Positions 9,457 through 33,058 of a stretch of 36,611 nucleotides of DNA are shown one piece after another; positions within the stretch are counted from its first letter, which is position 1; each line of letters begins with the position of its first letter. A model generated the notes under the pieces. It was not told the DNA's origin and searched no databases. It was given only the letters and a program-made list of their open reading frames with translations. Origin of the DNA: a virus. The DNA is taken from positions 1 to 36,611 of the IMG/VR virus record IMGVR_UViG_3300043410_000257; one strand, 5' to 3'. The position numbers and the translations under genes were made by a program.

Positions 9457-11712
9457 TTAGAAAGCGCCGCCAGCAATGCCGCCTGTCAGCTTGCCTGTGC
9501 TGGGATTTACCGTTACCGAAGAGTTTACCAATTGTGGGAGGTTTCCAGTAGTCGCAGAAACGAATGTGAGGTAGTTGTCTGCGTTTGTGGAATCTGCTGT
9601 GATTGCCGTGTTTGTGGCATTTGTTGCCGATCCAACCGACAGTGTGCTTTGGGCCACGTATTGAGGCGCAGAGACCCCCGCAGTGAGCACGTAGTTGGTT
9701 GTGCCCAACGCCAAGAACGATGTCGCACCTGACCCTGTGTTGTATGGCAACGAGCCTGCCGCACCGCCTGCAATGTTGGTGGCTGTGCCCACAGTGATGC
9801 CAGTTGGGTTTGACCACTGAGGGCCAGTCCCGCTGGATGTCATGATGTAGGTGCTGGTGCCAATCGCCAACTTGTTGAGCGCAGACGAACTCGATGCGTA
9901 CAGCATGTCGCCTGTGGTGTAGCTGGTGTAGCCAGAGCCGCCCAATGCCGCTGTAACAGGCGCTGTGAGGCTGAATTGAGTGCCTGTGAGGGTTAGCCCT
10001 GTGCCAGCCGTGTAAGTGCCTGCGCCGCTGAATTGAGACCATGTGACGGCGGTGACGCCCAAAGTGCCGCCGGGGTTGACCGTACACACCCAGCCCGTGT
10101 CGCCAAGCGTTGCGCCATCTTCCACGAACACGAATGCCGAAACCAATTCGTTCCATGTGTTTGCGTCTGTCGTGCGAGTCCAACCCAACGCAGAGGCGGC
10201 GTAGATGCCGTTCTCTGACGCCGTCAATTGGTTCTTGACCAAGATGCGATCACCTGCGGTCAGCGTGCCAGTCCATTCGCCGCCAGCCTGAGTCGTCAAC
10301 CCAGTCAGCAAGATGTTGCCAGTGGTGCCCCACAAACAAGCCGTCTTGACGTTCAAGCCCTGAGCGACGTTGTCAACGTACTGCTTGGTTGCCAATTGCA
10401 GATCGGATGTTGGGTCTTGGGTGACCGTGACCGATGTCAAGCCAGCCAGAACCAACGAGGTGTCGCCCAAGTTGAATGTGGTCGTGCCTACAGTGATCGA
10501 ATGATTCGTGATCGCTGAGTTGGGGATGTTCGACAGTGTGTTTGTTGAGCCGCTGATCGACACACCAGTAAGGGTTGAAAGCGTGCCACCCAACGACACC
10601 GATGTGGAGCCAATCGTGATCGCGCTATTTGTCAGCGACGAGTTTCCAATGTCGGTGAATGTGTTGCTCGACCCAGACATGGTCTTGTTGGTCAGAGTCT
10701 CGCCGCCAGACAAGGTTGCCAATGTGCCTGAGTTTGGCAAGGTCACGTTGGTGTTGCCAGTCGTGGTCAACGTCAGCGAGTAAGCGCCTGCGGTGCTGAA
10801 GTTGCCAGCCGTGGTCACAGCACCTGCGGTCGTCATTGCGCCGCCAGTGACGATGTCACCACCCAAAGTGATGGTGGTGGTGCCGTTGTCGACGCCAGTG
10901 CCGCCATGGGCAGGATTCAGGATGCCATCAAGTGTCACAGCGCCAGAGGTGTCTGTGCTTGGGCTGAAGCCTGTTGTGCCTGCGCTGAATGATGTCACGC
11001 CACCAGTCAATGAGAATTCTTGCCACCCAGTGTTGGTGTAGCCCTCGAACACTTGGAGGCTTGTGTTGTAGCGAACGGCGCCCAAATTGTTGACGCGCTG
11101 ACCTGTGGTGCCTTGAGGCAAGGTGACGCTACCTTGGCCCGGCAACACAGCGTTGCTTGCCAAAGCCACCGTCACATCACCCGCTCCATCACCGTTCGTG
11201 ATACTAATCTGATTAGTAACACCTAAGATGTCAATTTTGGCTGGTGAGCCAGATTGCAAGGCCAAGATGCCTGTGCCAGTCTGGGAAACAAGCTGTTGGA
11301 GGAAGGTGCCAAGGGCCACAGTGGGGTTCCCAGCCACTCCATCACCGTCGGTGATACCCAAGCCTGTCCCAACCTCGATTTCGCGTGCTGTGACCGTATT
11401 TGCGCCTGTCTTGACTTGCAAGCCAGTGCCGCTTGAGTTGAGCGACATTGCCGCGCCAATCAAGTTGACCTGCAAAGTACCTTGGGCGCCGTTGTCGGTC
11501 AGCGACAAACCGTCGTTGGTAGACAGGTAGCGAGATTGGGCCAAGCCAGAAGTTTGTCCAACGGTCAGGAATGGATAGTTGAGTGCTCCAGCACCAGAGA
11601 TCGCACTCGTGGTGGTTTGCACCGTCACGCCATTTTGGACGATTGGTACTGATTCGTTGCCAGTTAAGGCCCCCGCTTGGGGTAGTTGTGTGATGGTTAC
11701 TTGTCCAGACAT
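9457..11712 (-). CDS. Large tail fibre protein (751 aa)
   Basis: I start it at ATG 11712 (MSGQVTITQLPQAG), one base from the stop of the upstream gene. The longer in-frame start at 11823 would overlap that gene by about 110 bases. The body holds Ser/Thr/Gly-rich beta repeats, including near-tandem units with NSSLTNSAITIGSTSVSLGG and NSAITNHSITVGTTTFNLGD. A well-known fibre module follows (ATKQYVDNVAQGL, GDRILVKNQLTASENGIY, then SAFVFVEDGATLGDTGWVC). The C-terminus ends GGIAGGAF like the 405-aa protein. An odd feature is one copy of the 17-bp palindrome (11202-11218) inside the gene, encoding TNQIS. Confidence 0.82.
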   Translation of the reverse strand: MSGQVTITQLPQAGALTGNESVPIVQNGVTVQTTTSAISGAGALNYPFLTVGQTSGLAQSRYLSTNDGLSLTDNGAQGTLQVNLIGAAMSLNSSGTGLQVKTGANTVTAREIEVGTGLGITDGDGVAGNPTVALGTFLQQLVSQTGTGILALQSGSPAKIDILGVTNQISITNGDGAGDVTVALASNAVLPGQGSVTLPQGTTGQRVNNLGAVRYNTSLQVFEGYTNTGWQEFSLTGGVTSFSAGTTGFSPSTDTSGAVTLDGILNPAHGGTGVDNGTTTITLGGDIVTGGAMTTAGAVTTAGNFSTAGAYSLTLTTTGNTNVTLPNSGTLATLSGGETLTNKTMSGSSNTFTDIGNSSLTNSAITIGSTSVSLGGTLSTLTGVSISGSTNTLSNIPNSAITNHSITVGTTTFNLGDTSLVLAGLTSVTVTQDPTSDLQLATKQYVDNVAQGLNVKTACLWGTTGNILLTGLTTQAGGEWTGTLTAGDRILVKNQLTASENGIYAASALGWTRTTDANTWNELVSAFVFVEDGATLGDTGWVCTVNPGGTLGVTAVTWSQFSGAGTYTAGTGLTLTGTQFSLTAPVTAALGGSGYTSYTTGDMLYASSSSALNKLAIGTSTYIMTSSGTGPQWSNPTGITVGTATNIAGGAAGSLPYNTGSGATSFLALGTTNYVLTAGVSAPQYVAQSTLSVGSATNATNTAITADSTNADNYLTFVSATTGNLPQLVNSSVTVNPSTGKLTGGIAGGAF
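11202..11218. repeat. 17-bp palindrome, copy 1 (TACTAATC-t-GATTAGTA), intragenic
   Basis: A perfect odd-length palindrome with 8-base arms around a central t, located inside the large tail-fibre gene. The same arms recur at 26280-26296 and 32791-32807 with different central bases. No promoter-like elements flank this copy on the coding strand. Confidence 0.85.
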
Positions 11713-11713
11713 A

Positions 11714-12082
11714 TTACGAACTCGGTGAAATGATGTTTGTGTTGCCGTTTTGCAGAGGCACGGTATCACCATTTTCGGTGCTGATGTACCACTCGCTGGG
11801 GTTGCCGTTTGGAATGTTTTCACCCGTGGGTGTCAACACCAAGCCGTCGTCATTCGTAGCCACACTAACATCTGGTCGAGGGAATTGCAACGCAATACGT
11901 TCAGTCTTACGCGCAGGCAAGCGATACGGGTCTTTTTCGTCGGCACAACCTTGTTGGCAGACTTTGAGGCCGGGGAAGTTCGGATCGGGCATCGCCTCAA
12001 TAATTGGACGCTTCATGCGACAGCGGTCGCAAATGAAAATCGCTATTACTGCGTTGCCTCTGGTGTCTAGGAATCTTGGCAT
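11714..12082 (-). CDS. Zn-finger-like phage protein, unknown (122 aa)
   Basis: The N-terminal half holds two Cys pairs: C18-x2-C21 (CDRCRMKRP) and C42-x3-C46 (CQQGC), which fit a zinc ribbon. The pattern DPYRLPARKTERIALQFPRPD follows, then a polar tail with no charge clusters. I recall proteins of this type next to structural genes in related podoviruses without a known role. It sits between the 352-aa adaptor-like gene and the fibre genes. A small virion component or assembly factor is possible. Confidence 0.65.
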   Translation of the reverse strand: MPRFLDTRGNAVIAIFICDRCRMKRPIIEAMPDPNFPGLKVCQQGCADEKDPYRLPARKTERIALQFPRPDVSVATNDDGLVLTPTGENIPNGNPSEWYISTENGDTVPLQNGNTNIISPSS

Positions 12083-12084
12083 GA

Positions 12085-13143
12085 TTACCTTGTGTAGACG
12101 CTGATATTTGGGCTGTAGTAGATCGGTGACTTGTCGCGGTTCTCGTTCTCAGCCATGGTGAAGTACTTGTCGGCTTGGCCTTCGAGGTACTGCACACGGG
12201 CCAAGTCGACACCCGGCAAGATCAGGCTCATTTGGTGAGCCAACATGCACTGAATTGCTTGGTAGAAGTACTGTGGGATTTCCAACTCGTCGTACAAGTC
12301 GCCCACATCCATCACTTGGCGTGAGTACCAAATTGTCATCTGCACGAATGGGTTGCTTGGAGCAGGCCACAAAGTGATCTTCGCTTGAGGGATCGTGCGA
12401 TTGAACCAGTATTGGTACGGCTGATTGGCGGTAAAGTTTTTGTTGGGCAGGTTGGTGTAGTCGTCACGGTTCAAACGAGCCATGGTGACTTCGGTCGAGT
12501 TGTTGCCGACGTAGAACTCGCGCACTGCGAGTGTGTTGCCACCAGTCTCTCGCATGCGGTAGTACTGGACGTTGGCGCCGGGGTCGATGTCGTACCACAG
12601 CCACTCGTTGTCCACCCACGTCTCAACGCCACAGTCCTCCAACAAGTTCCATGTCGAGCCGTCGGTCGATGTCTCAAGCAAGATGTGGAACGAGCCGCTG
12701 GTGCCGGGCAAGATGCCAATCGAGCCAGCGTAGATCGGATTGTCCGTGCCGTAATTGATCGCAATGTTGCCGTTGGGGGCTGACTGCACATCGATGGTGG
12801 TGATGTCGCCGTCAGTGGCGTAGGCGGCTGTGCCAGACGATGCCGACACAGAACCAGAAGGGCGATTCATCGTGCGATACAAGGCGTTGAGCACGTCGTT
12901 GCCACCGAGGGGTAGCAAGTACTCATATTGGTCAGGCTTGAGGCCGTAGACCTTTTTGCTGATGCACCAATAGTTGACGCCTTGGTTGATCAGGTTCGAC
13001 AGAATGAAGAACAGAGCCTGCTTTGAACCTTGAACCTGCTCGACGGTCAACTCCTCAGCCAATTTGCCCGACATGCGAGCGCCTTGGTCGATGAATTTTT
13101 GTACTGAGACAACTGTTTGTCCAACGGTTCCGCTGTAAGCCAT
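12085..13143 (-). CDS. Adaptor-like virion protein with discoidin-like insert (352 aa)
   Basis: The helical N-terminus (about 1-95, with QALFFILSNLINQGVNYWC) and the C-terminal part (about 228-352: ITLWPAPSN, WYSRQVMD, P-QYFYQAIQCMLAHQ) resemble adaptor/connector proteins. Between them lies a beta insert (about 95-215) with TAAYATDGDITT, LLETSTDGSTWNLLEDCG, YYRMRETGG and VREFYVGN. This is the pattern of F5/8 type C (discoidin-like) carbohydrate-binding folds. The protein could sit at the head-tail joint and display a sugar-binding domain. Family calls are by eye. Confidence 0.55.
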   Translation of the reverse strand: MAYSGTVGQTVVSVQKFIDQGARMSGKLAEELTVEQVQGSKQALFFILSNLINQGVNYWCISKKVYGLKPDQYEYLLPLGGNDVLNALYRTMNRPSGSVSASSGTAAYATDGDITTIDVQSAPNGNIAINYGTDNPIYAGSIGILPGTSGSFHILLETSTDGSTWNLLEDCGVETWVDNEWLWYDIDPGANVQYYRMRETGGNTLAVREFYVGNNSTEVTMARLNRDDYTNLPNKNFTANQPYQYWFNRTIPQAKITLWPAPSNPFVQMTIWYSRQVMDVGDLYDELEIPQYFYQAIQCMLAHQMSLILPGVDLARVQYLEGQADKYFTMAENENRDKSPIYYSPNISVYTR

Positions 13144-13150
13144 GTTTACC

Positions 13151-13675
13151 TCACCAATTTACCTTGCCGCCCTTTTTGAAGGGTGCTGGCTTGCCACTAC
13201 CGATCTTTTCAGACCACTCTTTACGCAGACCTTCGGCCTTTGCTTTTTCGCCGCGCTTCTCAGCGCCTTGAGTGAATGTCTTCAAGCGATTTGACTCGCC
13301 ACGACGTTGCAAACGACCCCATTGTTTTTCAGCCTCAGGTTTGTTGCCAGACGCTGTCGCAATGTCAGCCATTTTACGGTTTGCGGTGAGTTTATTGACG
13401 AGTTGTTTGCTCTTATGTTTCTCGATGCGAGACATTTTTGGAGCCAAGTCTGGGCCGTCATCGTCTTCGTCACCACGAGGGTCACCGACCGCTTTGTAGT
13501 AGTCCACATCGCTGTCGTAGTCGTAAGGGCTCATCGAGCCACCACGAGCCTTCTTGGCGGCACGCTTGGTGCTGTAGGCAATCGCCACGGCTTGCTTTTG
13601 AGGCTTGCCAGCGGCGATCTCTGCCTTGATGTTGGATTTGAACGCTTTGTCAGATTTGGACTTCTTCAAAGGCAT
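13151..13675 (-). CDS. Basic virion-module protein ending in KKGGK motif (174 aa)
   Basis: I start it at ATG 13675 (MPLKKSKSDKAFKSN), 2 bases after the stop of the upstream gene. The in-frame start at 13765 would overlap that gene. The protein is Lys-rich, with a helix-like AAGKPQKQAVAIAYSTKRAA (about 22-41), an acidic patch (GDEDDDGPD) and a charged coiled-coil second half. It ends APFKKGGKVNW. An ARGGSMS motif precedes the acidic part. The (K)KGG motif recurs in three other proteins of this module. The start resembles small basic proteins with a 'KKAVAIAYS' helix common in phage genomes, function unknown. Confidence 0.7.
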   Translation of the reverse strand: MPLKKSKSDKAFKSNIKAEIAAGKPQKQAVAIAYSTKRAAKKARGGSMSPYDYDSDVDYYKAVGDPRGDEDDDGPDLAPKMSRIEKHKSKQLVNKLTANRKMADIATASGNKPEAEKQWGRLQRRGESNRLKTFTQGAEKRGEKAKAEGLRKEWSEKIGSGKPAPFKKGGKVNW

Positions 13676-13677
13676 GA

Positions 13678-14457
13678 TTAAGGCCCATTCTTGATCAAGA
13701 TGATGTTGAAGTACGAACTCACTGCGTTGTTTGCCGAAGCGCCAATTGCGGTTGCCCCCACGCAATTCTTTTCTGGAATTTGGTAAGGCTGTTCAAACTG
13801 AAACACAGCGGCGCCGTTGTTCACAGTGGTCACAGCGCCAACGCGAACGATACCGTCTGTGCCGTGTTGCCTTAGAAAACCAGTCACAGAAGTTGCGCCA
13901 GACGCTTGCCCAGAAGAGAACAATCCCTCTGTCATGTAGCCTGTGTAGCCTGCGGGAACACAGTAGTGACCAGTGGTGCGATTGTTGTATCCAGTAGCGA
14001 TGATGTCGTACAGCACGGCTGGAACGCCTGCTGTGACAACGCCAGTGCCTGCATTGATGTTGCCTGCGTTTGCTCCACCAGAGCCAACGGTAGACACATA
14101 GAAGCTGTTCACATACAGATACGAGTTTGTGGTGTTGACCGCTGTTTGACCATTCAATGTCACGGTCTCGCTGACCACATCGTAGTTGCCGTCCAAGCCT
14201 TCGATGTACACGGTGCGTGCACCAGTGCCAGCCGATGTGTCATCAGTGCTGGATGAACTGATCTTCAGAACTGATGCAACAGTTGGGTGTGGAATCGTGC
14301 CGCCATCGGGCCACACCGACTCTTCGGTTGTGTCCACATCTGGGTTGTAGCCAAACACGATGACCGTGCTGTGGCCTTGAATTTGACCGCGAGAAACCTG
14401 CAAGCCAAACGGCTCAAAGGTGCCTTGACGGGTAATGGAAGAAATAGTTGTTGACAT
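13678..14457 (-). CDS. Decoration-like virion protein (259 aa)
   Basis: ATG 14457 (MSTTISSITRQGTFEPFGLQVS) has GAGGA about 9 bases upstream, inside the trailing part of a terminator. A longer frame would need TTG at 14472. The protein is beta-rich, with the pattern VYIEGLDGNYDVVSETVTLNG and NTTNSYLYVNSFYVSTVG. I recall this pattern in head/virion structural proteins of marine and freshwater podoviruses. The same G-x-D-x-Y...SE.(I/V)...G pattern occurs in the 326-aa protein at 15787. Low charge and no Cys-rich region fit a capsid-surface or neck protein. Confidence 0.62.
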   Translation of the reverse strand: MSTTISSITRQGTFEPFGLQVSRGQIQGHSTVIVFGYNPDVDTTEESVWPDGGTIPHPTVASVLKISSSSTDDTSAGTGARTVYIEGLDGNYDVVSETVTLNGQTAVNTTNSYLYVNSFYVSTVGSGGANAGNINAGTGVVTAGVPAVLYDIIATGYNNRTTGHYCVPAGYTGYMTEGLFSSGQASGATSVTGFLRQHGTDGIVRVGAVTTVNNGAAVFQFEQPYQIPEKNCVGATAIGASANNAVSSYFNIILIKNGP

Positions 14458-14470
14458 GCCGTCATTCCTC

Positions 14471-14497
14471 AAGAAAAGCGGGGGCCGAAGCCCCCAC
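14471..14497 (-). terminator. Strong intrinsic terminator after the Lys/Gly-repeat protein gene
   Basis: On the minus strand, GGGGGC (14495-14490) and GCCCCC (14485-14480) form a perfect stem closed by a TTCG tetraloop, followed by GC and TTTTCTT (14477-14471). It lies 5 bases past the stop of the 423-aa gene and just before the ribosome-binding site of the next gene. This is a textbook Rho-independent terminator. Some read-through must feed the downstream genes, or an unseen promoter does. Confidence 0.9.
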
Positions 14498-14502
14498 TCG
14501 GT

Positions 14503-15774: not shown

Positions 15775-15786
15775 GTTGCCCTCCTA

Positions 15787-16767: not shown

Positions 16768-16801
16768 TGATCTTCTCCTTGAAAAGCATGATCAGTATTT
16801 A

Positions 16802-16831
16802 CAAAAAAGGGCTGGCTTTTACACCAGCCCC
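16802..16831 (-). terminator. Strong intrinsic terminator after the major capsid gene
   Basis: On the minus strand, GGGCTGG (16830-16824) pairs with CCAGCCC (16815-16809) across an 8-base loop, followed by TTTTTT (16808-16803). It begins 9 bases past the capsid stop. A terminator here would make the capsid message more abundant than the downstream genes. The rest of the 16768-16838 gap holds the ribosome-binding site (AAGGAG) of the 326-aa gene and no clear promoter. Confidence 0.92.
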
Positions 16832-16838
16832 TGTCACT

Positions 16839-17753: not shown

Positions 17754-17770
17754 TTTTTACTCCTTGGCTA

Positions 17771-18367: not shown

Positions 18368-18380
18368 AATTTACTCCTTG

Positions 18381-18926: not shown

Positions 18927-18944
18927 GATGTTTTCCCCTTAGAT

Positions 18945-19946: not shown

Positions 19947-19958
19947 TGTTCCCTCCTG

Positions 19959-20414: not shown

Positions 20415-20452
20415 CTTCTCTCCTAAACACCATATCTCAGGTGCATCGTTAT

Positions 20453-20488
20453 GCGCTTTTTCAGCGCGGTCTCGCCACGGAGTGTGGC
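20453..20488 (-). other. Two small hairpins in the gap before the co-chaperonin gene
   Basis: In the 75-base gap 20415-20489, the minus strand forms GCCAC/GTGGC (20488-20474) and GCGCT/AGCGC (20467-20453), each with a 5-base loop. No U-tract follows, so neither is a convincing terminator. They could slow polymerase or be mRNA processing or stability elements between the portal cluster and the groES-like gene. Confidence 0.4.
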
Positions 20489-20489
20489 T

Positions 20490-25978: not shown

Positions 25979-26040
25979 GTCGATCTCGATGAGGGAATTG
26001 CCTCAATTATGCCTTTGTGGGGCAGTCAGTACAACGTCCA

Positions 26041-26256
26041 TCACTCTGGCACACGCCCAGACACTTGCATGACCTGAGCATTGCGCCATCTAATCCAATC
26101 GCGCAGTGCTTGCATGGTTTGCTCTTCGTGCAACTCTGCCGTGGGCTTGGTGAGGATTTCAAATCGATGGGCGCACACTGTGGTTTGCACGCCGTTGATG
26201 TGGGTGATCTTTTCATAGTCTTTGCCTGTCGTAACGCTGATGAAGTCGTCGCTCAT
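26041..26256 (-). CDS. Small unknown protein downstream of TerL (71 aa)
   Basis: ATG 26256 has a clear AGGAG 6-10 bases upstream on the coding strand. The protein has a beta-like N-terminus (MSDDFISVTTGKDYEKITHI), a VCAHRFE(I/L) middle and a Trp/Arg-rich helix (TMQALRDWIRWRNAQ). Directly upstream lie two overlapping inverted repeats (26279-26314) and a possible promoter, so it may be the first gene of a new transcript. A 24-codon Cys-rich frame overlaps its end (see findings). I do not recognise the family. Confidence 0.6.
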   Translation of the reverse strand: MSDDFISVTTGKDYEKITHINGVQTTVCAHRFEILTKPTAELHEEQTMQALRDWIRWRNAQVMQVSGRVPE

Positions 26257-26262
26257 GTTGTC

Positions 26263-26305
26263 TCCTAAGGGTTTCTACTTACTAATCCGATTAGTAATCA
26301 ATTGT
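26263..26305 (-). promoter_or_regulatory. Possible promoter with the 17-bp palindrome as spacer
   Basis: On the minus strand a TTGATT (26303-26298, -35-like) is followed after 18 bases by TAGAAA (-10-like, 26279-26274). The spacer consists almost wholly of the palindrome ACTAATC-N-GATTAGT. The AGGAG and ATG of the 71-aa gene follow at once. Each box matches the sigma70 consensus at 4 of 6 positions, so this is a weak or activator-dependent promoter at best. Confidence 0.4.
26279..26297. repeat. 17-bp palindrome, copy 2 (19 bp perfect: TTACTAATC-c-GATTAGTAA)
   Basis: A perfect palindrome with 9-base arms in the 54-base gap between terL and the 71-aa gene. It shares its left half-site with a second inverted repeat (26291-26314). 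This is the only copy wholly outside coding sequence, and therefore the best candidate for a working operator. Confidence 0.9.
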
Positions 26306-26314
26306 GATTACTAA
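26291..26314. repeat. Second inverted repeat overlapping copy 2
   Basis: TTAGTAATCA (26291-26300) and TGATTACTAA (26305-26314) are perfect 10-base arms around ATTG. It covers the terL stop (26311-26313) and overlaps the 19-bp palindrome by 7 bases. In RNA only one of the two hairpins could form at a time. In DNA they look like two overlapping sites for one dimeric protein. Confidence 0.85.
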
Positions 26315-27747
26315 GCACCGTATGGGTTCTCTCTGCCACGCATGTTGTAAATCTCAGCGTCTGTGATGTCCTCTTGATCCAACTCTTCGCGTCGTGGGAA
26401 GTCGATGCTGATCCATCCACCGTCGCGCAAGTATCGCAAGCCTTGGCTGATGCAGTCAACGAATTCGTCATGCACTGTGCCCTCAGGGAATGAGCACACC
26501 TGACTGACCATGCCCTCAGCCCAATCGCGCACGTAGCCCTTGCGTTGGCTGTGCTCTGGCACCCATACGCGCCCTGCCTTGATGATGTTGGCGACGATGC
26601 TGAGGCGTTGGACTTTGTCGGCCCTGCCGGGGTTATATCCCGTCACTGGCAGGTGCGCACGTTGCAAGTCTTGGATCAGCGACGTGCCTGCCGCCTTGTC
26701 CTCGATGAGGATCAGGTCGACCAACTTGCGTTCCTTGCCCTCGCCGTACACCGTCTCGAACTCGTCAATCACTTTGGGGCGAAGGTCTGGGTACTGAAGG
26801 CGCTCTTGCCAACAGTCGATGACCATCACGCACATGCCTGCATCGATGGGCTTGAACACCCCAAAGGTGATGCACCCAGTGGGGTCGTTGTAGTCGTTGT
26901 CCTTGAACGCGCAGTCGTATGACTGGATCACGTACTCGAACTTGGGGAAGGGCTTGTCAGCAGGCCATAGACGGAACCACTCGCGCTTGACGATGCCGCC
27001 CTCTTCGGGGTCGATGATCTCGGCGTGAATCTCTTGGCGTCCAAGGTCGGTGCCCTCGTACTGCAAGATTTGCTTTTGGAACGACTTCGCAAGGTTCTTG
27101 ATGTTGGAGTACGTGCTGGCGCGTGTGATCACCACGTCGTCGCCTTCGCGCTCGATCAACTCCATCACCACTTCTTTGGGCTTTGGCGTGGTCGAGCAGA
27201 TCAGCTTGGTGCGCTCACCGAGACGAATGCCGAACATGATCATGTCCCACGACTCGCGCAGGTACTCCCATGCCGCCAACTCGTCTAGCCACCCACCATG
27301 GAACTGTGGGCCACGGAAACGCTCAGGCTCGGACGCTGGGATGCCCTTGATGAACGATCCATTGATCAGGTGTATCTCGTGCAGGCTTGAGTTGTACTTG
27401 GCGATCAGGCCATCGGGGATGACCTTGAGTAGGCCAGAGTCGCCCTCAAAGCATGTGCCCTTCAAGTCACCGCTCGTGGGGGCCGACACCAACCATCGTG
27501 TGTTGGGTTGCTCCCATGCCCATGCCGCCAAGGTCTCTGCCGCCGCACGTGTCTTGCCTGCGCCGCGCCCTGCCAACATGAGCCATATGTTCCACCAATC
27601 GCCCACTGGCTCGATCTGATGCTTGTGGGCCGTGGCGTACCACGCTGACTGCCAATTGACCACCAATTGGGCAATGGGCGTCAGCTTGTTGAACTCCTCT
27701 GCGAGGTACTCCTTGTCTTCAAGGATTTCTTCGACGGCTAGGGTCAT
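26311..27747 (-). CDS. terL: Terminase large subunit TerL (478 aa)
   Basis: The N-terminal ATPase has Walker A GRGAGKT (60-66, K65), Walker B GGWLDE (151-156, D155/E156) and the coupling motif CSTTPKP (184-190). The C-terminal RNase H-like nuclease has D278 (QSYDCAF), an acidic pair E349-D350 (LILIEDKAAG) and D427/D431 (VHDEFVD). Both domains look complete. TerL cuts concatemeric phage DNA and pumps it through the portal. The length is normal. The gene overlaps the TerS stop by 4 bases (27744-27747). Confidence 0.95.
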   Translation of the reverse strand: MTLAVEEILEDKEYLAEEFNKLTPIAQLVVNWQSAWYATAHKHQIEPVGDWWNIWLMLAGRGAGKTRAAAETLAAWAWEQPNTRWLVSAPTSGDLKGTCFEGDSGLLKVIPDGLIAKYNSSLHEIHLINGSFIKGIPASEPERFRGPQFHGGWLDELAAWEYLRESWDMIMFGIRLGERTKLICSTTPKPKEVVMELIEREGDDVVITRASTYSNIKNLAKSFQKQILQYEGTDLGRQEIHAEIIDPEEGGIVKREWFRLWPADKPFPKFEYVIQSYDCAFKDNDYNDPTGCITFGVFKPIDAGMCVMVIDCWQERLQYPDLRPKVIDEFETVYGEGKERKLVDLILIEDKAAGTSLIQDLQRAHLPVTGYNPGRADKVQRLSIVANIIKAGRVWVPEHSQRKGYVRDWAEGMVSQVCSFPEGTVHDEFVDCISQGLRYLRDGGWISIDFPRREELDQEDITDAEIYNMRGRENPYGA

Positions 27748-28337
27748 TCTTCAAGCTGTCGCTGTTGCTTGATGGCCTTCAGTAGGTCACCGAACACGTT
27801 GAGGTTGTGCTCCACCACCACTGGGGCGTTGTCGTCTCCACCATGGGTGACTCGATCACCGTACTTCTTGGGGTTGAACTTTGCCAACAGCTTGAGGCGT
27901 GTCTCGATCCTCAGCTTGGATCGCTGGATGTGCTCACCGTTGGCCTCCCAGCCAGCAGACCTGCCCTCTTCATCGAATCGCTCCATCCAATCATTGTTGG
28001 CGTTGTCGGCGATATCAAGGCATTCCTCTGCCAAGGCGTCGTACCCCACGTCACGCGCATGCGCGATGGCTGTGGAAAGGTCGGGGTCTTTCCCCATCCA
28101 GTCGTACACCGTTCTCCACGCTGGGAAGCCTTCTTGTCTGCATATCTCCCTCAGTGGTATCCCCTCACTGAGTTGTTCACACATCTGTCTGGCTATCTCA
28201 GGGTCGTACTTGGATGGTCTCCCTCCCTTGTTTTTGGGCGGCGCGGGTTTTGTCGCGGGGAGGTTTTGTGCCGTCTCACTCTCTGGTGCCACCACCACGA
28301 GGCTTGGCTCTTTGGTCTTCGTCTTCTTGTCGGTCAT
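27744..28337 (-). CDS. terS: Terminase small subunit TerS (197 aa)
   Basis: A disordered Lys/Pro/Ala N-terminus (1-36) is followed by an AT-hook-like GGRPSKYD (38-45) and a helix-turn-helix (about 57-83, GIPLREICRQEGFPAWRTVY). A helical oligomerisation region ends in LKLLAKFNPKKYGDRVTH, a hallmark of Sf6-type small terminases. It then ends in a helical TerL-contacting tail. It would recognise the packaging site and load TerL. The ATG is directly preceded by a potential long hairpin (28339-28381). Confidence 0.9.
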   Translation of the reverse strand: MTDKKTKTKEPSLVVVAPESETAQNLPATKPAPPKNKGGRPSKYDPEIARQMCEQLSEGIPLREICRQEGFPAWRTVYDWMGKDPDLSTAIAHARDVGYDALAEECLDIADNANNDWMERFDEEGRSAGWEANGEHIQRSKLRIETRLKLLAKFNPKKYGDRVTHGGDDNAPVVVEHNLNVFGDLLKAIKQQRQLEE

Positions 28338-28338
28338 A

Positions 28339-28381
28339 TTCCAGTCCTTTGTCGCGCAGTCATTTCAGCGCATAACTGGAA
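28339..28381 (-). promoter_or_regulatory. Hairpin over the terS ribosome-binding site
   Basis: On the minus strand TTCCAGT (28381-28375) pairs with ACTGGAA (28345-28339), and GCGC (28371-28368) pairs with GCGC (28357-28354) inside it. The likely ribosome-binding sequence AAGGA lies within the lower part of this structure, and the terS ATG begins one base after the closing arm. There is no following U-tract, so it is not a terminator. It may limit terS translation or be bound by TerS itself. Confidence 0.5.
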
Positions 28382-28390
28382 GTTTAACTC

Positions 28391-28639
28391 TTACAAGGTT
28401 TGCTTGTGAAGATGTTCTGCCACCATGGGGTAGTCTTCTTTGAGGGTTTGCAGTTCGTGCTGGAGTTCGTCTGCGCGTCGGATTGCTTTTGCGGAACGGA
28501 TCAACTTGTCTGCCGATGACTCGATGTGCCGGGTTGCCACATCGATGTCGAACTGGTTTTCTTCATCTTTTCTGGCGTGCATCATGATCAGGGCTCTCAC
28601 CTGACCTTCCAGCTTGTCTATGCGCTCTTGGTCTGTCAT
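28391..28639 (-). CDS. Small coiled-coil protein, unknown (82 aa)
   Basis: An all-helical charged protein (MTDQERIDKLEGQVRALIMM at the N-terminus, with heptad-like Leu/Ile spacing to about residue 75). No membrane segment or catalytic motif is visible. It overlaps the 65-aa gene upstream by 4 bases and is the last gene before the terS leader. Function is unknown. Confidence 0.65.
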   Translation of the reverse strand: MTDQERIDKLEGQVRALIMMHARKDEENQFDIDVATRHIESSADKLIRSAKAIRRADELQHELQTLKEDYPMVAEHLHKQTL

Positions 28640-28833
28640 TTGATCTCCACTGAGTTTTCTGCGGCGAACTTCAAGCCCTCCGCAAGTTGGGCGTACTCCT
28701 CAATGGGCACCACGCTCATAACGGGGCCTTGAGGGGTGTTGACGATCTTGAGCACGCCCATGCCGTACAGCAGGGCGTTTGCATAGGCGTCGCTGAGGGT
28801 GAGGAATTCCTCATCAACTGGTTTCTCGTCCAT
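28636..28833 (-). CDS. Small unknown protein (65 aa)
   Basis: A 65-aa acidic protein (MDEKPVDEEFLTLSDAYANA, then YGMGVLKIVNTPQGPVMSVV and a helical end). The pattern is a helix, a beta hairpin and a helix. Its ATG directly abuts the stop of the upstream gene and its stop overlaps the next start. I see no motif that tells its job. Confidence 0.65.
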   Translation of the reverse strand: MDEKPVDEEFLTLSDAYANALLYGMGVLKIVNTPQGPVMSVVPIEEYAQLAEGLKFAAENSVEIK

Positions 28834-29022
28834 TTAGAGTTCCTCTGGGTTGTAGCCCACTTCGACCAAGAAGTCGCTGATGAGTCGATGCACTCTGCCC
28901 TCTAGATGCTTTGGAACCCTGCGCTCGACGTAGGTTGTCTCCACATCTGGTTTTTCTGGAGGCTTGCCCATGCCATAGTCCACGGGTTGGCCTCCACCTT
29001 TGATTGGGGCTTTGTCAAACAC
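28834..29022 (-). CDS. Small unknown protein, probable GTG start (62 aa)
   Basis: The open frame reaches back to 29106, but that part overlaps the 62-aa gene upstream. I choose GTG at 29022-29020, with GGAG 7 bases upstream and the codon overlapping the end of the preceding gene (stop 29017-29015). The product begins MFDKAPIKGGGQPVDYGMG, with a charged helix-rich end (VPKHLEGRVHRLISDFLVEV). ATG 28971 is the alternative, giving 45 aa. Function is unknown. Confidence 0.55.
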   Translation of the reverse strand: MFDKAPIKGGGQPVDYGMGKPPEKPDVETTYVERRVPKHLEGRVHRLISDFLVEVGYNPEEL

Positions 29023-29203
29023 CTTCGATCTCCAATGGCACATCGCGCCACTCGCCTTTGGGTTGGAATTCCCCACCGATGAATTTGCTGACATGGCTCC
29101 ACCCAAAGTCTTCCCACCATTGTTGGAGGATGCGCACGGGCTTGTGGTCGCCGTTGACTTCGATCTCGCGCTCCACGAAGCGCAGTTTTGGTGTTGGTTT
29201 CAT
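29015..29203 (-). CDS. Small unknown protein (62 aa)
   Basis: A 62-aa protein, MKPTPKLRFVEREIEVNGDH followed by KPVRILQQWWEDFGWSHVSK and GEWRDVPLEIE. It has the compact beta-strand pattern of small DNA-metabolism accessory proteins. The opening LRFVERE and QQWWED.....GEWRDVP are a pattern I recall from many phage proteins of unknown role. It overlaps its upstream neighbour by 4 bases. Confidence 0.7.
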   Translation of the reverse strand: MKPTPKLRFVEREIEVNGDHKPVRILQQWWEDFGWSHVSKFIGGEFQPKGEWRDVPLEIEGV

Positions 29204-29490
29204 GGTCGTGTTTTCCCTTCTTCAAATCCACGTTGATACTCTTGCTCAAGGCGACCCTTGAACACTTTTGCAATGTAGTCCACGAATGCGATGGCGCTCT
29301 CGTTGGCATTGCCCTCGAATGCTAGTCCATCGCCGTTGAAGTCCAAGCGTCCGATCTCTTCGTTGCCACTGTTGTGGAAGATCAAGGTGTAGTTGGGCTT
29401 GGGCACCTCAAACTTCTTGATTTGCGAGTGCGGTACGTGGCACTCTGCGCCCTCATAGTTCACTTTGTATGGCTCACTCTGCGCTGACAT
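29200..29490 (-). CDS. Unknown protein (96 aa)
   Basis: I start at ATG 29490 (MSAQSEPYKVNYEGAECHV), giving a 17-base overlap with the histone-like gene. The longer frame to 29670 would lie inside that gene and has unlike composition. The protein is beta-rich (YTLIFHNSGNEEIGRLDFNG) with a helical, charged C-terminal third (VDYIAKVFKGRLEQEYQRGF). I see no enzyme or metal-binding motif. Confidence 0.65.
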   Translation of the reverse strand: MSAQSEPYKVNYEGAECHVPHSQIKKFEVPKPNYTLIFHNSGNEEIGRLDFNGDGLAFEGNANESAIAFVDYIAKVFKGRLEQEYQRGFEEGKTRP

Positions 29491-29770
29491 TGAGAATCCT
29501 CCGTTCTGCGAATTTTCGGTATGCCTTGAGGTCTTTGTTCTCTTGCTCCAAACGCTCCACGCGCCCTTTGAGGTGGTTGATGGTGCTGTTTGCACGCTCG
29601 ATCCACTCTTTGACCTCTTGAGGCATGGCAAACATCTCGTCACGTTTTGCGCTGGCGATGGTGCGCTCACTCACAAGCACGCGCTTGACGATTTTCTTGG
29701 TTGGCGCCTTCTTGGCTACAACCTTCTTGGCTGGGGCCTTCTTAGCGGCTGGTTTCTTGGCAGTTGCCAT
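29474..29770 (-). CDS. Histone H1-like Lys/Ala-tailed protein (98 aa)
   Basis: Residues 1-30 are a tail of AKK/KKAPAKK/KKAPTKK repeats like the H1 C-terminal tail and bacterial Hc1/AlgP proteins. Residues 51-90 are a coiled coil (EWIERANSTINHLKGRVERL). It may bind DNA or RNA through the basic tail and dimerise through the helix. The tail sits at the N-terminus, the reverse of eukaryotic H1. The gene is flanked by small unknown genes with overlaps on both sides (29742-29770 and 29474-29490). Confidence 0.65.
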   Translation of the reverse strand: MATAKKPAAKKAPAKKVVAKKAPTKKIVKRVLVSERTIASAKRDEMFAMPQEVKEWIERANSTINHLKGRVERLEQENKDLKAYRKFAERRILNVSAE

Positions 29771-29930
29771 TGCTGATCTCCTTGGGTTGGTAAACGATGT
29801 CTGGCGCGTATGCGCACAGGATGATGAACATGACCAGCATCATGCCAATCACGATCTTTTGCCAGATGGTCTCAGGCGGCTGTTGGCTGGGCAGGCGGCT
29901 CATCATGTCGTCGATGTCTTGTTTGTTCAT
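29742..29930 (-). CDS. Small single-pass membrane protein (62 aa)
   Basis: The polar N-terminus (MNKQDIDDMMSRLPSQQPPE) is followed by one hydrophobic segment (about 23-43, IWQKIVIGMMLVMFIILCAY) and a polar tail. It overlaps the histone-like gene by 29 bases and the upstream 124-aa gene by 4 bases. A membrane-located early function is possible, such as host takeover or superinfection exclusion. Nothing specific shows it. Confidence 0.6.
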   Translation of the reverse strand: MNKQDIDDMMSRLPSQQPPETIWQKIVIGMMLVMFIILCAYAPDIVYQPKEISNGNCQETSR

Positions 29931-30301
29931 GTGTTCTTCTCCTTGAGTTTGGCTTCGATTTGTCGTATTTTGTCTATGTATGTTCCTGCGGGAGGGTCGT
30001 CATACCACACAGCCCTACATTCCTCATCCGTCAGCCCAACCCATGTGCGTTGTTGTGGTGTGGTGTAGAGCTTTGTGCCAACGTCAGGAACATAGCTAAT
30101 CCAATCAACACCAACCCTTTCAAAATCATTAGGCCAAGCAACCACTTCTCCAACAGGCTCACCATGCTCTTGCTTGGCTAGTGCTTCTTCTAGGGCTTTG
30201 ATGGCTTTACGCGCTGAAGGCTTGTGCTGATAGACATAGCCAGTACCAGCAACAACATCTTCCAATTCTTTTAACGCCAGCTTCATTGCTTCTTTACTCA
30301 T
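29927..30301 (-). CDS. Conserved phage protein, unknown (124 aa)
   Basis: A helical N-terminus (about 1-45) is followed by the motif EPVGEVVAWPNDFERVG, then GTKLYTTPQQRTWVGLTDEE and a helical end. This 'E-P-V-G-x-V......G..LYT.P' core recurs in many small phage/prophage proteins of Burkholderiales and other Proteobacteria, with no known role. Its ATG overlaps the stop of the 35-aa gene. Confidence 0.7.
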   Translation of the reverse strand: MSKEAMKLALKELEDVVAGTGYVYQHKPSARKAIKALEEALAKQEHGEPVGEVVAWPNDFERVGVDWISYVPDVGTKLYTTPQQRTWVGLTDEECRAVWYDDPPAGTYIDKIRQIEAKLKEKNT

Positions 30302-30405
30302 AGCGGAGCCTCAGGTAGTTGGTTACGTTGTTGCGCTTGGTAGTCGCGCTCTTGCTTGGCAGTCCACGGGACTGGGCCCGTGGGTGGTGGGAAGGGCCAT
30401 GACAT
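30298..30405 (-). CDS. Micro-protein, first gene of promoter P1 transcript (35 aa)
   Basis: ATG 30405 has AAGGAG 6 bases upstream and opens a 35-codon frame (MSWPFPPPTGPVPWTAKQER, then a Gln/Asn-rich end). Its TGA overlaps the start of the 124-aa gene. The Trp/Pro-rich N-terminus followed by a charged helix is like small host-interacting phage peptides, though that is a loose comparison. It lies about 40 bases downstream of the promoter block P1. Confidence 0.65.
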   Translation of the reverse strand: MSWPFPPPTGPVPWTAKQERDYQAQQRNQLPEAPL

Positions 30406-30420
30406 ATCTAACTCCTTGTT

Positions 30421-30465
30421 TAAACCTGCGACCTTGCAGTGGCTTGATTCTAACACGAAGTTAGA
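30421..30465. repeat. Duplicated promoter/leader block, copy 1
   Basis: This block shares with 32672-32717 the parts TAAACCTGCGAC, TGCAGTGG, ATTCTAACAC and AAGTTAGA (plus-strand reading). Within it TCTAAC-N5-GTTAGA (30449-30465) is an inverted repeat, and CTGC-N6-GCAG gives a short hairpin near the expected 5' end of the transcript. Confidence 0.8.
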
Positions 30466-30477
30466 TTGTGATGTCAA
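30447..30477 (-). promoter_or_regulatory. Promoter P1 with overlapping operator
   Basis: On the minus strand TTGACA (30477-30472) is a perfect -35. A 19-base spacer leads to TAGAAT (30452-30447), preceded by TG at the extended -10 position (TG-T-TAGAAT). The palindrome TCTAAC-TTCGT-GTTAGA covers the spacer and -10, so a bound dimer would block polymerase. Spacing with TTAGAA as -10 would be 18 bases. It would drive the genes from 30405 leftward. Confidence 0.65.
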
Positions 30478-30791
30478 TGCTTATTTGGTGGTCTGCAAGT
30501 GCCGTCACGGGCCTTGCTGATGGCTACCAACGACTCCACAGCGGCGATGCCCTCCTCCACCTTGCCGTCGATGGCTTTGTAGGCCACCAATTGGATGTGG
30601 GGGCGCACCTCTTCGTGAACCATGATCAGGGCCTTGGCGATCAGGCTGGTGCCCACGTTGACCAACACGTTGGTGGCTATGCCCATGTGGTGCTCTTCCA
30701 ACACGTCGCGCATGGCCTCCATGACTTGGTATTCAAGGTCTTCGCAGATTTCCTTGATGATCTCGATGTCTGGGTGGTTTTCCATGGTCAT
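30474..30791 (-). CDS. Unknown acidic protein (105 aa)
   Basis: A helical, acidic protein (MTMENHPDIEIIKEICEDLE, YQVMEAMRDVLEEHHMG, then a hydrophobic IATNVLVNVGTSLIAKALI). The hydrophobic stretch resembles that of the 86-aa protein at 5224 (MGEIAIKVLMNMGLPFVGAE), so the two may be distant relatives. Its stop lies inside the -35 region of promoter P1. Function is unknown. Confidence 0.6.
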   Translation of the reverse strand: MTMENHPDIEIIKEICEDLEYQVMEAMRDVLEEHHMGIATNVLVNVGTSLIAKALIMVHEEVRPHIQLVAYKAIDGKVEEGIAAVESLVAISKARDGTCRPPNKH

Positions 30792-31042
30792 TGCCTCTGT
30801 GATGGGATGCGGTTCAAGATGGCCTCTGCAAGGTCTGCATGGCCTGCTTCACGTGCCATGTCTGCACAAGCCTCACGTTCGATCAGCAAGGCCGTCTTGG
30901 TGGTTTGGATAGCCACAGTCATGATCTCGGCCTTGGCGAGGGTCAGAGCCTCGTCAAATTCGCTTTGGGTGAAGGTCTTGATGTGGCCTGCGCCACCCAA
31001 AATGGTTTTTGCCAATTGGCTCAGTTCTTTTTTCTCAGTCAT
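30788..31042 (-). CDS. Small unknown helical protein (84 aa)
   Basis: An 84-aa helical protein with a basic start (MTEKKELSQLAKTILGGAGH), then TFTQSEFDEALTLAKAEIMT and a Cys/Ala helix (TALLIEREACADMAREAGHA). The C-terminus 'ERE.CA.....AGH..LA.AI..R' is a pattern common in small phage proteins of unknown role. It overlaps both neighbours by 4-8 bases. Confidence 0.6.
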   Translation of the reverse strand: MTEKKELSQLAKTILGGAGHIKTFTQSEFDEALTLAKAEIMTVAIQTTKTALLIEREACADMAREAGHADLAEAILNRIPSQRQ

Positions 31043-31244
31043 TTTGCTCTTTCAGTTTTGCTACTTTCACTCGAATATGCCCCTCACCCATGTGCCACAT
31101 GAGTCGGTGCAGGAACTCGGACGACATCTTGGTGGTGTCGATCTCGATGTGGGCTTCGTGACACAGCCTAAGGCCATCCACGATGACCTTTGGATTCTCG
31201 TGCGTCACCGTGCTCTCGTGGACGCTGAATGTTGGCAATTCCAT
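31035..31244 (-). CDS. Small unknown protein (69 aa)
   Basis: I start at ATG 31244 (MELPTFSVHESTVTHENPKV), just after the stop of the 25-aa membrane peptide. The longer frame to 31271 would overlap that peptide. It has a beta-rich N-terminal half and a helix with KMSSEFLHRLMWHMGEGHIR. No motif is recognised. Confidence 0.6.
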   Translation of the reverse strand: MELPTFSVHESTVTHENPKVIVDGLRLCHEAHIEIDTTKMSSEFLHRLMWHMGEGHIRVKVAKLKEQND

Positions 31245-31245
31245 G

Positions 31246-31323
31246 TCAGTTCTTTGCGAAGTAGTAAGCAAGGGCGATCAGGATGATCACCCCCACCGTT
31301 TTGACGATGGGGTTCAGTTTCAT
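31246..31323 (-). CDS. Membrane micro-peptide (25 aa)
   Basis: ATG 31323 overlaps the TGA of the upstream 137-aa gene and opens a 25-codon frame (MKLNPIVKTVGVIILIALAY, ending YFAKN). It has a Lys-flanked hydrophobic helix that would span the membrane once. Its stop lies 1 base before the next ATG. Short size limits certainty, but the coupling and amphipathic ends suggest that it is translated. Confidence 0.55.
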   Translation of the reverse strand: MKLNPIVKTVGVIILIALAYYFAKN

Positions 31324-31733
31324 TTGTCGTCTCCCTTCACCAAGGCCAACACGCGAGGATCAGCGCCAGTCAGGAATTGTTGGGCGTAGGCTTGGCGTGC
31401 ATTGCGATGGTAGGACTGAGCCAACATGTTCTCGATCTCTTTGTTGCGCTGTTGGTTGGCGTGCGCGGCGTCTTTGTCGATCACGTCCACCACCCACTTG
31501 TACTTGATGTCGGCGTTGGGCTCGATGTCCAACTCTTCGTCCACCGACATGACCTCGCAGATTTTCCAAAGGTCATTGCCACCAGAGGGCACGACCACGA
31601 AGTCGCCCACCTTCACGTTGAGGTGCGTGATGTAGGTGTAGTTGCGGCTACTTGGCATTCCGTTCTCGTTGGAAAATTGAACGCTGATTGTTTTGGTGTC
31701 TTCGCGCAAGATGGCGGCGATGTTCTTGTCCAT
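31320..31733 (-). CDS. Unknown protein (137 aa)
   Basis: ATG 31733 has AAGGAG 8 bases upstream and begins MDKNIAAILREDTKTISVQF. The longer frame to 31796 lies inside the upstream gene. The middle has a beta-barrel-like KVGDFVVVPSGGNDLWKICE followed by acidic strands. The C-terminal part is helical, with HANQQRNKEIENMLAQSYHR. The pattern suggests a small SH3-like barrel plus helices. I do not recognise the family. Confidence 0.65.
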   Translation of the reverse strand: MDKNIAAILREDTKTISVQFSNENGMPSSRNYTYITHLNVKVGDFVVVPSGGNDLWKICEVMSVDEELDIEPNADIKYKWVVDVIDKDAAHANQQRNKEIENMLAQSYHRNARQAYAQQFLTGADPRVLALVKGDDK

Positions 31734-31743
31734 GGTGTTCTCC

Positions 31744-32025
31744 TTAGGCTGTGTATTCGATGGCTTGCAGTTTGCTGATGCGGTCGTTGATGTCATTGAC
31801 CGTGGCTTGGTAGTCTGCCCTTGCTTTTTGTTTTTGGGCCTCTAGCGCGGCGATCTGGCTGGGGCGCGGGTCAAAGTTTTCTGGAACTTCAATTTCCAGT
31901 TCTTGGCTGTTTACGTAAATCATGGTGTCAGTGCTATCGACTTTTGCGTAAAACAACAAGTATTCGCCTTTGTCTTCCCATCTGTATTTGTTGTAGTAAA
32001 CGTGTGCTGTGAGTTTGACTTTCAT
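31744..32025 (-). CDS. Unknown protein (93 aa)
   Basis: ATG 32025 has AAGGGG upstream and begins MKVKLTAHVYYNKYRWEDKG. The longer frame to 32181 runs through the upstream gene and is rejected. The first half is beta-rich. The second half is a coiled coil (AALEAQKQKARADYQATVND). An internal parallel is the 104-aa neighbour, also a small beta-then-helix protein. Function is unknown. Confidence 0.65.
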   Translation of the reverse strand: MKVKLTAHVYYNKYRWEDKGEYLLFYAKVDSTDTMIYVNSQELEIEVPENFDPRPSQIAALEAQKQKARADYQATVNDINDRISKLQAIEYTA

Positions 32026-32035
32026 GATGATCCCC

Positions 32036-32350
32036 TTAACCGATGTGAATGATTTGCAGTTTGCCCATTGCTTGGGCGGCTTGCATGAGTGTCTTGACTT
32101 CTTTGACTGCTTGGCGACGAATGTCGTTGAGTTCTTTGGCAATGTCGTCACCGCCGATCTCTTTGATCCATCCAGAGCCATACCAACAATCTTGGTGGTC
32201 GTGGTAGTTCAACTCGATCCAGTTCTCACCCCAACGAATGTCAAAGTTTCTGCCGCCTTGCTTGATGTACTCGCCCAAGGTGCGCATGATCAAAGCCCGT
32301 GAAGGCTTGCGGTTGTAGTCGATGCCAATGACTGGGTATGTGTTGCTCAT
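32036..32350 (-). CDS. Unknown protein (104 aa)
   Basis: ATG 32350 with AGGAGG upstream begins MSNTYPVIGIDYNRKPSRAL. The frame to 32545 lies in the preceding gene and is rejected. A Trp-rich middle (DIRWGENWIELNYHDHQDCW) is followed by a helical C-terminus ending LIQAAQAMGKLQIIHIG-like. No motif suggests an enzyme. Confidence 0.62.
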   Translation of the reverse strand: MSNTYPVIGIDYNRKPSRALIMRTLGEYIKQGGRNFDIRWGENWIELNYHDHQDCWYGSGWIKEIGGDDIAKELNDIRRQAVKEVKTLMQAAQAMGKLQIIHIG

Positions 32351-32363
32351 GATGGCCTCCTGA

Positions 32364-32657
32364 TTAACGTGATGTTGTCTTGATGCTGAACACAGCAGTG
32401 GTGCTGGTGAACTCAGCGATCTTGTCGGCAGGAATAGACAAAGCCTCTGCCAATGCTTTCCAATCGGTGACTGAGCGGTTTGACTCGACGTATGTGCATT
32501 TGAACAATGAACCCTCGAAGACTTTGTTGTCGCCCTTGCTGGCAACGTCTTTCATCGCATCTTTGATCTTGTCGGCTTGCTTGGTGAGCGTAGCGATCTG
32601 TGCCAACAATGTGCCGAGTTCGTCAGCGGAAGCGGGGGTGGTAGTGATAGTTGTCAT
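32364..32657 (-). CDS. Unknown helical protein, first gene of promoter P2 transcript (97 aa)
   Basis: ATG 32657 has AGGAG 7 bases upstream and begins MTTITTTPASADELGTLLAQ. A frame to 32741 would extend across promoter P2 and is rejected. A long helix (IATLTKQADKIKDAMKDVAS) is followed by a beta segment (KVFEGSLFKCTYVESNRSVT) and a KALAEALSIPADKIAEFTS end. I recall this layout in small phage proteins beside recombination genes, with no known role. Confidence 0.65.
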   Translation of the reverse strand: MTTITTTPASADELGTLLAQIATLTKQADKIKDAMKDVASKGDNKVFEGSLFKCTYVESNRSVTDWKALAEALSIPADKIAEFTSTTAVFSIKTTSR

Positions 32658-32671
32658 TTGATACTCCTGAA

Positions 32672-32717
32672 TAAACCTGCGACTGTGCAGTGGAAACAAT
32701 TCTAACACCAAGTTAGA
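32672..32717. repeat. Duplicated promoter/leader block, copy 2
   Basis: The second copy of the block at 30421-30465. The inverted repeat TCTAAC-N5-GTTAGA lies at 32701-32717 and the CTGC-N6-GCAG hairpin at about 32677-32690. The copies differ in the spacer bases and by one insertion between -10 and the CCACTGC leader. Confidence 0.8.
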
Positions 32718-32750
32718 GTCTGTTGGCGAGTTTTTTTTCAAATATTTTTG
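32699..32750 (-). promoter_or_regulatory. Promoter P2 with operator and UP-like A-tracts
   Basis: The -10 is TAGAAT (32704-32699) with an extended TG. The aligned -35 is TCGCCA (32729-32724), a 4 of 6 match. Directly upstream on the minus strand is an A/T-rich tract (32750-32731, AAAATATTTGAAAAAAAA-like), typical of an UP element. The palindrome TCTAAC-N5-GTTAGA overlaps spacer and -10. It would drive the genes from 32657 leftward. Confidence 0.6.
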
Positions 32751-32785
32751 TAGGTGCTTTCCCTAAGTTACGGAATGAATACCAA

Positions 32786-33058
32786 TTATTTACTAATCAG
32801 ATTAGTAAAGACGTTGCGAATGGTCACATTCAAGGCGTCGTTTTCGTCCATCTTTGCAATGGCCCATGCCCTCTTTTGCCCGTGCCATCCCATCATGGAG
32901 CCTTGGTGGCAGGACTTGCACAGGGCCACGCATGTGTAGTGGTTGCCCTGCTTGATATGGTGGGCGTCTGAAGGCCCTGCGGCCTCACAGACAGAGCAGG
33001 GTTGCTCTTTGACCAACTGCACCCATGCACGCTCACTCTTGTTGTAACTGCCGTTCAC
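32786..33058 (-). CDS. HNH nuclease, Ref-like (90 aa)
   Basis: C21-x2-C24 and C47-x2-C50-H51 form the zinc knuckles around the HH motif (A-H33-H34-I). H59 lies in MGWHGQKRAWA. The pattern PCSVC...DAHHIK...CKSCHQG...GWHG resembles P1 Ref, a RecA-dependent HNH nuclease, though it is only the core domain. Its last residues (TNLISK) are encoded by copy 3 of the 17-bp palindrome, so the palindrome is part of the coding frame. It overlaps the upstream gene by 4 bases. Confidence 0.75.
   Translation of the reverse strand: MNGSYNKSERAWVQLVKEQPCSVCEAAGPSDAHHIKQGNHYTCVALCKSCHQGSMMGWHGQKRAWAIAKMDENDALNVTIRNVFTNLISK
32789..32809. repeat. 17-bp palindrome, copy 3 (TTTACTAATC-a-GATTAGTAAA)
   Basis: A perfect palindrome with 10-base arms at the 3' end of the HNH gene. 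It lies about 60 bases upstream (minus strand) of the -35 of promoter P2, so a protein bound here could act on P2. Confidence 0.88.

Follow-up and report, generated by a model that had tools for sequence, protein, structure and literature searches.

A dispersed palindrome in a phage genome and its probable binder, a phage-encoded ParB-like protein

Orphan proteins of the ParB fold are widespread on phages, and most of them are uncharacterised according to the survey that describes them (PMC12704722). In Caulobacter ParB and Noc, residue 173, right after the conserved Ser172, reads base 1 (Q173 in ParB), and an Arg at position 201 reads cytosine 6 (PMC7383237). The subject here is a palindrome, TACTAATC-N-GATTAGTA, found in a virus record of 36,611 bases (IMGVR_UViG_3300043410_000257; the whole of this stretch was analysed and is called the window). 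Judged from sequence comparison, the palindrome is very probably bound by a ParB-like protein that the phages themselves encode, three residues of which co-vary with the site's letters across dozens of related phages.

The window holds three exact copies, and three or more matches arose in none of 100 dinucleotide shuffles; no fourth copy was found in the window even with three mismatches allowed. Site 1 (TACTAATCTGATTAGTA, 11202-11218) is within a tail-fibre open reading frame (ORF) on the minus strand (9457-11823; match to a gene of phage record MW202545.1 annotated tail fibre; PHROG 11518, tail fiber, E 1e-12), where it is translated as part of ...VTNQISIT. Site 2 (TACTAATCCGATTAGTA, 26280-26296) stands between the stop of terL (26311-27747, minus strand; Pfam Terminase_6N, E 1.3e-25) and the start of the minus-strand ORF 26041-26256, and site 3 (TACTAATCAGATTAGTA, 32791-32807) forms the last codons of a small minus-strand ORF (32786-33058) that ends ...TNLISK stop; no strand is assigned to any of the three. 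A sequence-only reading of the window had reported one 17-bp palindrome in three places and had named the genes around it. Its coordinates all proved right, as did the placement of site 1 in the fibre, site 2 beside the end of terL and site 3 in the small ORF, but its 'HNH' label for the last was not confirmed: a sub-threshold match to Pfam DUF968 and PHROG 1588 (function unknown) were the only family matches of that ORF, which has a counterpart in MW202545.1 (gene 61-333) and whose family is uncertain.

Among named relatives, MW202545.1 is the nearest. Its record is circular, has 57,457 bases and is called complete, so the window is probably short of about one third of its genome. MW202545.1 is without the window's form. 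In its place stand eight copies of a symmetric variant, TACTAGTC-N-GACTAGTA (L085 has five of them and L086 three), and in all eight the paired substitution is symmetric on both arms. Three of the eight are at the window's places, i.e., in the fibre gene (TACTAGTCTGACTAGTA, the counterpart of site 1), at the terL flank and at the end of the small ORF (the counterparts of sites 2 and 3, TACTAGTCAGACTAGTA each). The terL-flank site has a partner 29 bp away that is missing in the window, and two other MW202545.1 sites have no counterpart at the matching window places. Read from the codons, the two changed bases in the fibre would give N to S and I to T in MW202545.1, so that the protein changes along with the site; this points to selection at the DNA level inside the coding sequence of the fibre. 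Among viral stretches, 81 hold the exact motif of the window; 74 of these match MW202545.1 at the protein level and seven do not, and in 69 the matches cover at least 20% of the length. The earlier reading would have been refuted by absence of the motif from the same places in all close relatives, or by a host dif-like or restriction motif frequent everywhere; MW202545.1 has its own variant at all three places, and the exact motif is concentrated in this one phage group.

The MW202545.1 gene at 9886-10704, annotated 'parB-like nuclease domain', contains two of the sites. Homologues of this gene were drawn from viral contigs and bacterial genome contigs, one viral search contributing the best 80 of 573 relatives. 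The set of 90 genes comprises 51 of 55 viral-contig loci, 34 of 39 viral-contig loci that were new in a further search, 3 of 24 bacterial-contig loci, MW202545.1 and G024; part-query matches (L138, L139, L140 and L142), five loci on contigs already used and the partial L102 were left out. In 71 of the 90, the linker that joins the helix-turn-helix (HTH) region to the coiled coil (nucleotides 455-560) contains an odd palindrome whose arms are 6 or more bases long, its letters being specific to the genome (CTAATC, CTAGTC, CTAATT, CTAGTT, CTAATG, GTAATC, GTAGTC, GTAATT, GTAGTT, GGAATC and others). Synonymous redrawing of the codons gave a linker palindrome in 2.1 of the 90 genes on average and in 7 at most, and the rest of the same genes has 0.034 palindromes per equal length. 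Within the linker, residues 167-189 of the L088 protein have a predicted local distance difference test score (pLDDT) below 50 in the AlphaFold2 model. The sites of Zeimonas arvi (L218) read GGAATC twice and GGAGTC once. In some distant ParB-like genes the linker has recurrent palindromes that are spaced differently, such as GTGGAAGCGCTTCCAC four times in L320 and GTGGAAACAATTCCAC three times in L285, and L271 is a further case.

The column scan, the tree and the code were all based on genes with a site. In the scan, the well-filled alignment columns of 53 dereplicated proteins were scored against each base of the half-site, and the best columns (L088 numbering) were residue 132 for bases 1 and 2, residue 133 for bases 3 and 4, and residue 151 for base 6, with base 5 being T in 53 of 53 proteins; linker columns score as well because the site itself encodes them. 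Base 4 is G with S or T at residue 133 (26/26) and A with P, H or K (27/27), while base 6 is C with K or R at residue 151 (34/35), T with V, L, M or I (17/17) and G with D (1/1). In the AlphaFold2 model, residues 132-139 form the second HTH helix and 151 is in the helix that follows, which places all three residues in and next to the recognition helix. Residue 132 comes directly after the conserved Ser131, as 173 comes after Ser172 in Caulobacter ParB, and residue 151 would be the structural counterpart of 201, an equivalence drawn from order and role and not from a residue-level superposition.

With the HTH and linker columns left out of the tree, base 4 changed 14 times and the residue class 14 times, and all 8 of the independent pairs that lie on supported branches were concordant (p = 0.0078). 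Base 1 (a mean of 5.7 of 6 pairs) and base 6 (4.5 of 5) had too few pairs to decide alone. The rule was fixed before the held-out homologues were fetched; of the 37 held-out genes, 28 carry a site, or 19 once dereplicated, and the dereplicated proteins fitted at residues 132, 133 and 151 in 5/5, 11/11 and 18/18 cases, residues outside the rule (T, K and H at 133; D, E, G, H and S at 132; I at 151) being uncounted.

The copies within a genome agree with one another. Comparison covered 31 records (29 contigs, MW202545.1 and the window), of which 28 have a parB homologue and 24 of the 28 an in-gene variant; these 24 had come in by motif scan (G024), DNA similarity (MW202545.1) and protein similarity (the other 22). 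Outside parB, the 24 records contain their own variant 55 times versus 6 times for all other variants of a ten-variant list together. In 26 of the 31 records, with no motif supplied, the commonest arm-6 odd palindrome belongs to the variant set, in a tie with GGAGTT in the case of G012; it is of another kind in G007, G021, G025, G026 and G029. In those 26 of 31 records that have an assigned variant, an own-variant site is in parB in 24 of 25 records, within 90 bp of the 3' end of terL in 13 of the 17 with terL, at the 3' end of the small ORF in 15 of the 24 with that gene, and in the fibre gene or within 300 bp of it in 6 of the 14 with the gene, the window and MW202545.1 included. Evenness of spacing was mixed in nine records (smallest-gap P from 0.003 to 0.77, largest-gap P from 0.004 to 0.54), and because the sites are homologous between records the conclusion is limited to their being spread out. 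Across the half-sites of 23 records the centre base was A 30, T 30, G 16 and C 7 times, with TA immediately outside the core in sites of the C type. The record type of L125 and its copies (G019, the record behind L127, with E at residue 132) has eight further one-mismatch sites, most with one CTAGTT and one CCAGTT half; the latter suggest a broader half-site and a possible relaxed specificity.

The ParB-like protein is predicted to combine an N-terminal domain of the ParB/sulfiredoxin fold with an HTH, followed by a variable linker and, at the C-terminus, a coiled coil. In its AlphaFold2 model (mean pLDDT 82, predicted template-modelling score 0.54) the order of the first two parts is the one expected of ParB, Noc and KorB, and the other feature looked for in this family, a palindromic candidate cognate site in or near the gene, can be proposed for the 71 of 90 genes described above. 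Foldseek placed a Myxococcus ParB first (E 3.8e-7), followed by Noc and KorB, and VIA-align gave Z 12.2 for KorB (8qa9_B; root-mean-square deviation 6.4 over 157 aligned residues) and Z 10.5 for a ParB-parS structure (6t1f_B; 4.8 over 152). The proteins match PHROG 1033, 'ParB-like partition protein' (E 1e-8 to 1e-20); no NCBIfam model was above cut-off for the four proteins searched, the best being the Noc model (E 3.6e-5, L218), and PADLOC had no match for the ParB-like protein or for a neighbouring YdaS-like protein.

Several points weigh against a ParB-like protein as the binder of the palindrome. No parB homologue was found in the window; the window is collinear with MW202545.1, so the parB of its phage would fall in the missing part, judging by its position in the relative (9886-10704). 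Of the 90 homologues, 19 show no arm-6 odd palindrome in that stretch of the linker, although three or more of these 19 have recurrent palindromes of other spacing, and in a second held-out scan (22 of 80 loci examined, 19 of these on new contigs) 15 of the 19 new loci had no odd palindrome in the gene. Of the four that did have one, three agree with the code at bases 4 and 6 (residue 151 was read by eye in two of them), including L327, which has a second variant; the remaining palindrome, that of L335, seems unrelated. L125, together with its copies L126 and L127, departs from the code at base 6. The two variants of L097 overlap and were assigned by position (the other choice gives 52/53 at base 4), and the records compared include near-duplicates (G018/G019, G002/G008 and G010/G027). 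About 100 bp separate the HTH from the in-gene site, and recombination might carry the two along together, although the copies outside the gene argue against this as a full account. Finally, the three proteins scanned had no Pfam ParB-domain match at E up to 0.1, and the nucleotide-binding boxes are divergent: a Box II-like DGFHR is invariant in the alignment of homologues, its GFHR resembling the GCHR of the sulfiredoxin match, and the Box III-like motif is N..HG, unlike the classical ENLQR. Given this divergence, the ligand may be CTP, ATP or neither.

On the favoured reading, the palindrome would be the loading site of the ParB-like protein, analogous to parS or to the operator of KorB. A dimer would read the two half-sites around the variable base, with residue 132 at bases 1-2, 133 at bases 3-4 and 151 at base 6; one or two sites are usually within the parB gene itself and others are spread over the genome. 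Once loaded, the dimer may close as a clamp dependent on a nucleoside triphosphate (NTP) and slide onto the flanking phage DNA, a step that we consider somewhat better than an even prospect from homology with the known proteins. The earlier idea of a dimeric DNA-binding protein is supported by the dyad, the variable centre, the changes on both arms, the agreement within genomes and the co-variation with an HTH protein, and a binder that had then seemed beyond identification now has a likely name. As no ParA was found, control or organisation of phage DNA in the manner of KorB is a likelier use than partition, and the data are compatible with KorB-like control together with the YdaS-like protein, with genome organisation and with recruitment of helicase and primase. 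A broader proposal is evenly balanced: that phages at large have ParA-less ParB-like clamps with private parS-like letters in each lineage, mostly with a site in their own linker, and a code at 132, 133 and 151. Loading of these clamps at scattered sites would serve the silencing, organisation or replication of phage DNA, perhaps with the co-encoded YdaS-like proteins locking them at promoters as KorA locks KorB.

The strongest alternative keeps the same binder and makes the palindromes sites of a replication origin or of primosome loading, marking DNA for the helicase and primase encoded downstream of it, in the manner of lambda O. Of 17 mapped records, 16 have the gene order YdaS-like HTH, parB, helicase, primase together with a divergent gene (the primase lies at a greater distance in some, and the exception is the window, which lacks the region), and helicase and primase families were confirmed for MW202545.1. 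The parB, helicase and primase order recurs in a prophage-like region of Zeimonas arvi (L218), which also has a tyrosine integrase, its primase being a Toprim-domain ORF. The iterons of lambda O lie inside the O gene, which the in-gene linker position resembles. Set against this, the palindromes are single or paired among late genes without clusters of iterons, the fold is that of ParB and KorB, and the extremes of cumulative GC skew were away from parB in the six records tested. This use of the sites is unlikely. In Acidovorax phage AP1 (L280, 8605-9429) the C-terminal domain and the parB-helicase-primase order are shared and the N-terminal part differs, and the C-terminal part of the ParB-like protein may be tied to replication genes; the AP1 gene has no arm-6 odd palindrome, and the only two palindromes that recur, twice each, are unrelated.

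A second alternative with the same binder, that the palindrome is the parS centromere of a ParABS partition system in a plasmid-like prophage, is improbable. The protein is ParB-like and has sites in its gene, as some classical parB loci do, but a ParA-type ATPase (PF13614, the only family searched for ParA) was found in none of 12 records, the control being found in 14 of 14 genomes, and tyrosine integrase (PF00589) was found in none of the same 12; as 11 of these are contigs of 49-56 kb with no completeness given and MW202545.1 alone is recorded complete, the absence is not proof.

Less probable still is that the sites are operators of a separate repressor, e.g., the YdaS-like HTH protein whose gene stands beside parB, in the way of dispersed operators or of the stoperators of mycobacteriophages. 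The region between the YdaS-like gene and a divergent gene (which has an acidic C-terminal tail and no known function in Pfam or PHROGs) is a promoter region with a conserved dyad, approximately TAACACA...TGTGTTA, that overlaps -10-like elements (L086 10935-11050 and matching regions). This dyad is itself the candidate operator of the YdaS-like protein, whereas the letters of the 17-bp site track residues of the ParB-like protein, and across 15 other records, in which the site letters vary, YdaS keeps 68-88% identity to its MW202545.1 counterpart. Stoperators are, like these sites, many copies of one operator across a phage genome, but they are asymmetric and bound by a monomeric, unrelated repressor (PMC9283540), and the palindromes here are perfect with a variable centre.

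An RNA hairpin or transcription terminator is very improbable: paired changes would suit an RNA stem too, but the C and G beside the centre would be loop bases in RNA and yet obey the code, and three genes have sites within their coding sequence. The sites are not followed by a T run, and in a scan of sites 2 and 3 no terminator-like match covered either. A host chromosome motif, dif-like or a restriction site, is hardly credible either, for although the motif is palindromic and seven motif-bearing stretches are outside the phage group, the other 74 match that group, the letters differ between related phages, and the Zeimonas variant GGAATC-N-GATTCC occurs only twice in 3.8 Mb, both times within the parB-like gene.

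With a ParB-like protein as the probable binder, the probable targets of dozens of orphan phage ParB-fold proteins become readable from sequence. The three-residue code also predicts the effect of a point mutation, in that P133S should switch TACTAATC to TACTAGTC, and the set as a whole is a natural library for the evolution of DNA specificity.

By analogy, sites and protein would work much as ParB-parS, Noc-NBS and KorB-OB do, and would be a variant of these known systems, the OB of plasmid RK2 being likewise an odd palindrome with a central base between its arms. The titles and abstract openings searched contained no earlier description of such phage sites. The orphan phage proteins with a ParB-CTPase fold are similarly ParA-less, ParB-like and on phages; their survey differs in concerning domains and nucleotide binding, passages from it give no cognate sites of the phage proteins, and its main text does not contain 'Palindrom' (PMC12704722). 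ParB-parS and Noc-NBS have the same fold and specificity positions that appear equivalent, including Arg or Lys with cytosine 6, and differ in that no ParA was found here and that the published specificities are conserved per family, whereas the phage lineages each have their own letters (PMC7383237). KorB of RK2 is likewise a ParB-fold clamp used for control and not partition, with several dispersed palindromes, and has a small HTH partner, KorA, as the phages have a YdaS-like gene beside parB (PMC11790492); no homology of the YdaS-like protein to KorA is shown. Unlike KorB and OB, the pair described here is on phage genomes, with other half-site letters, a site in the linker of its own gene and site letters that diverge family-wide.

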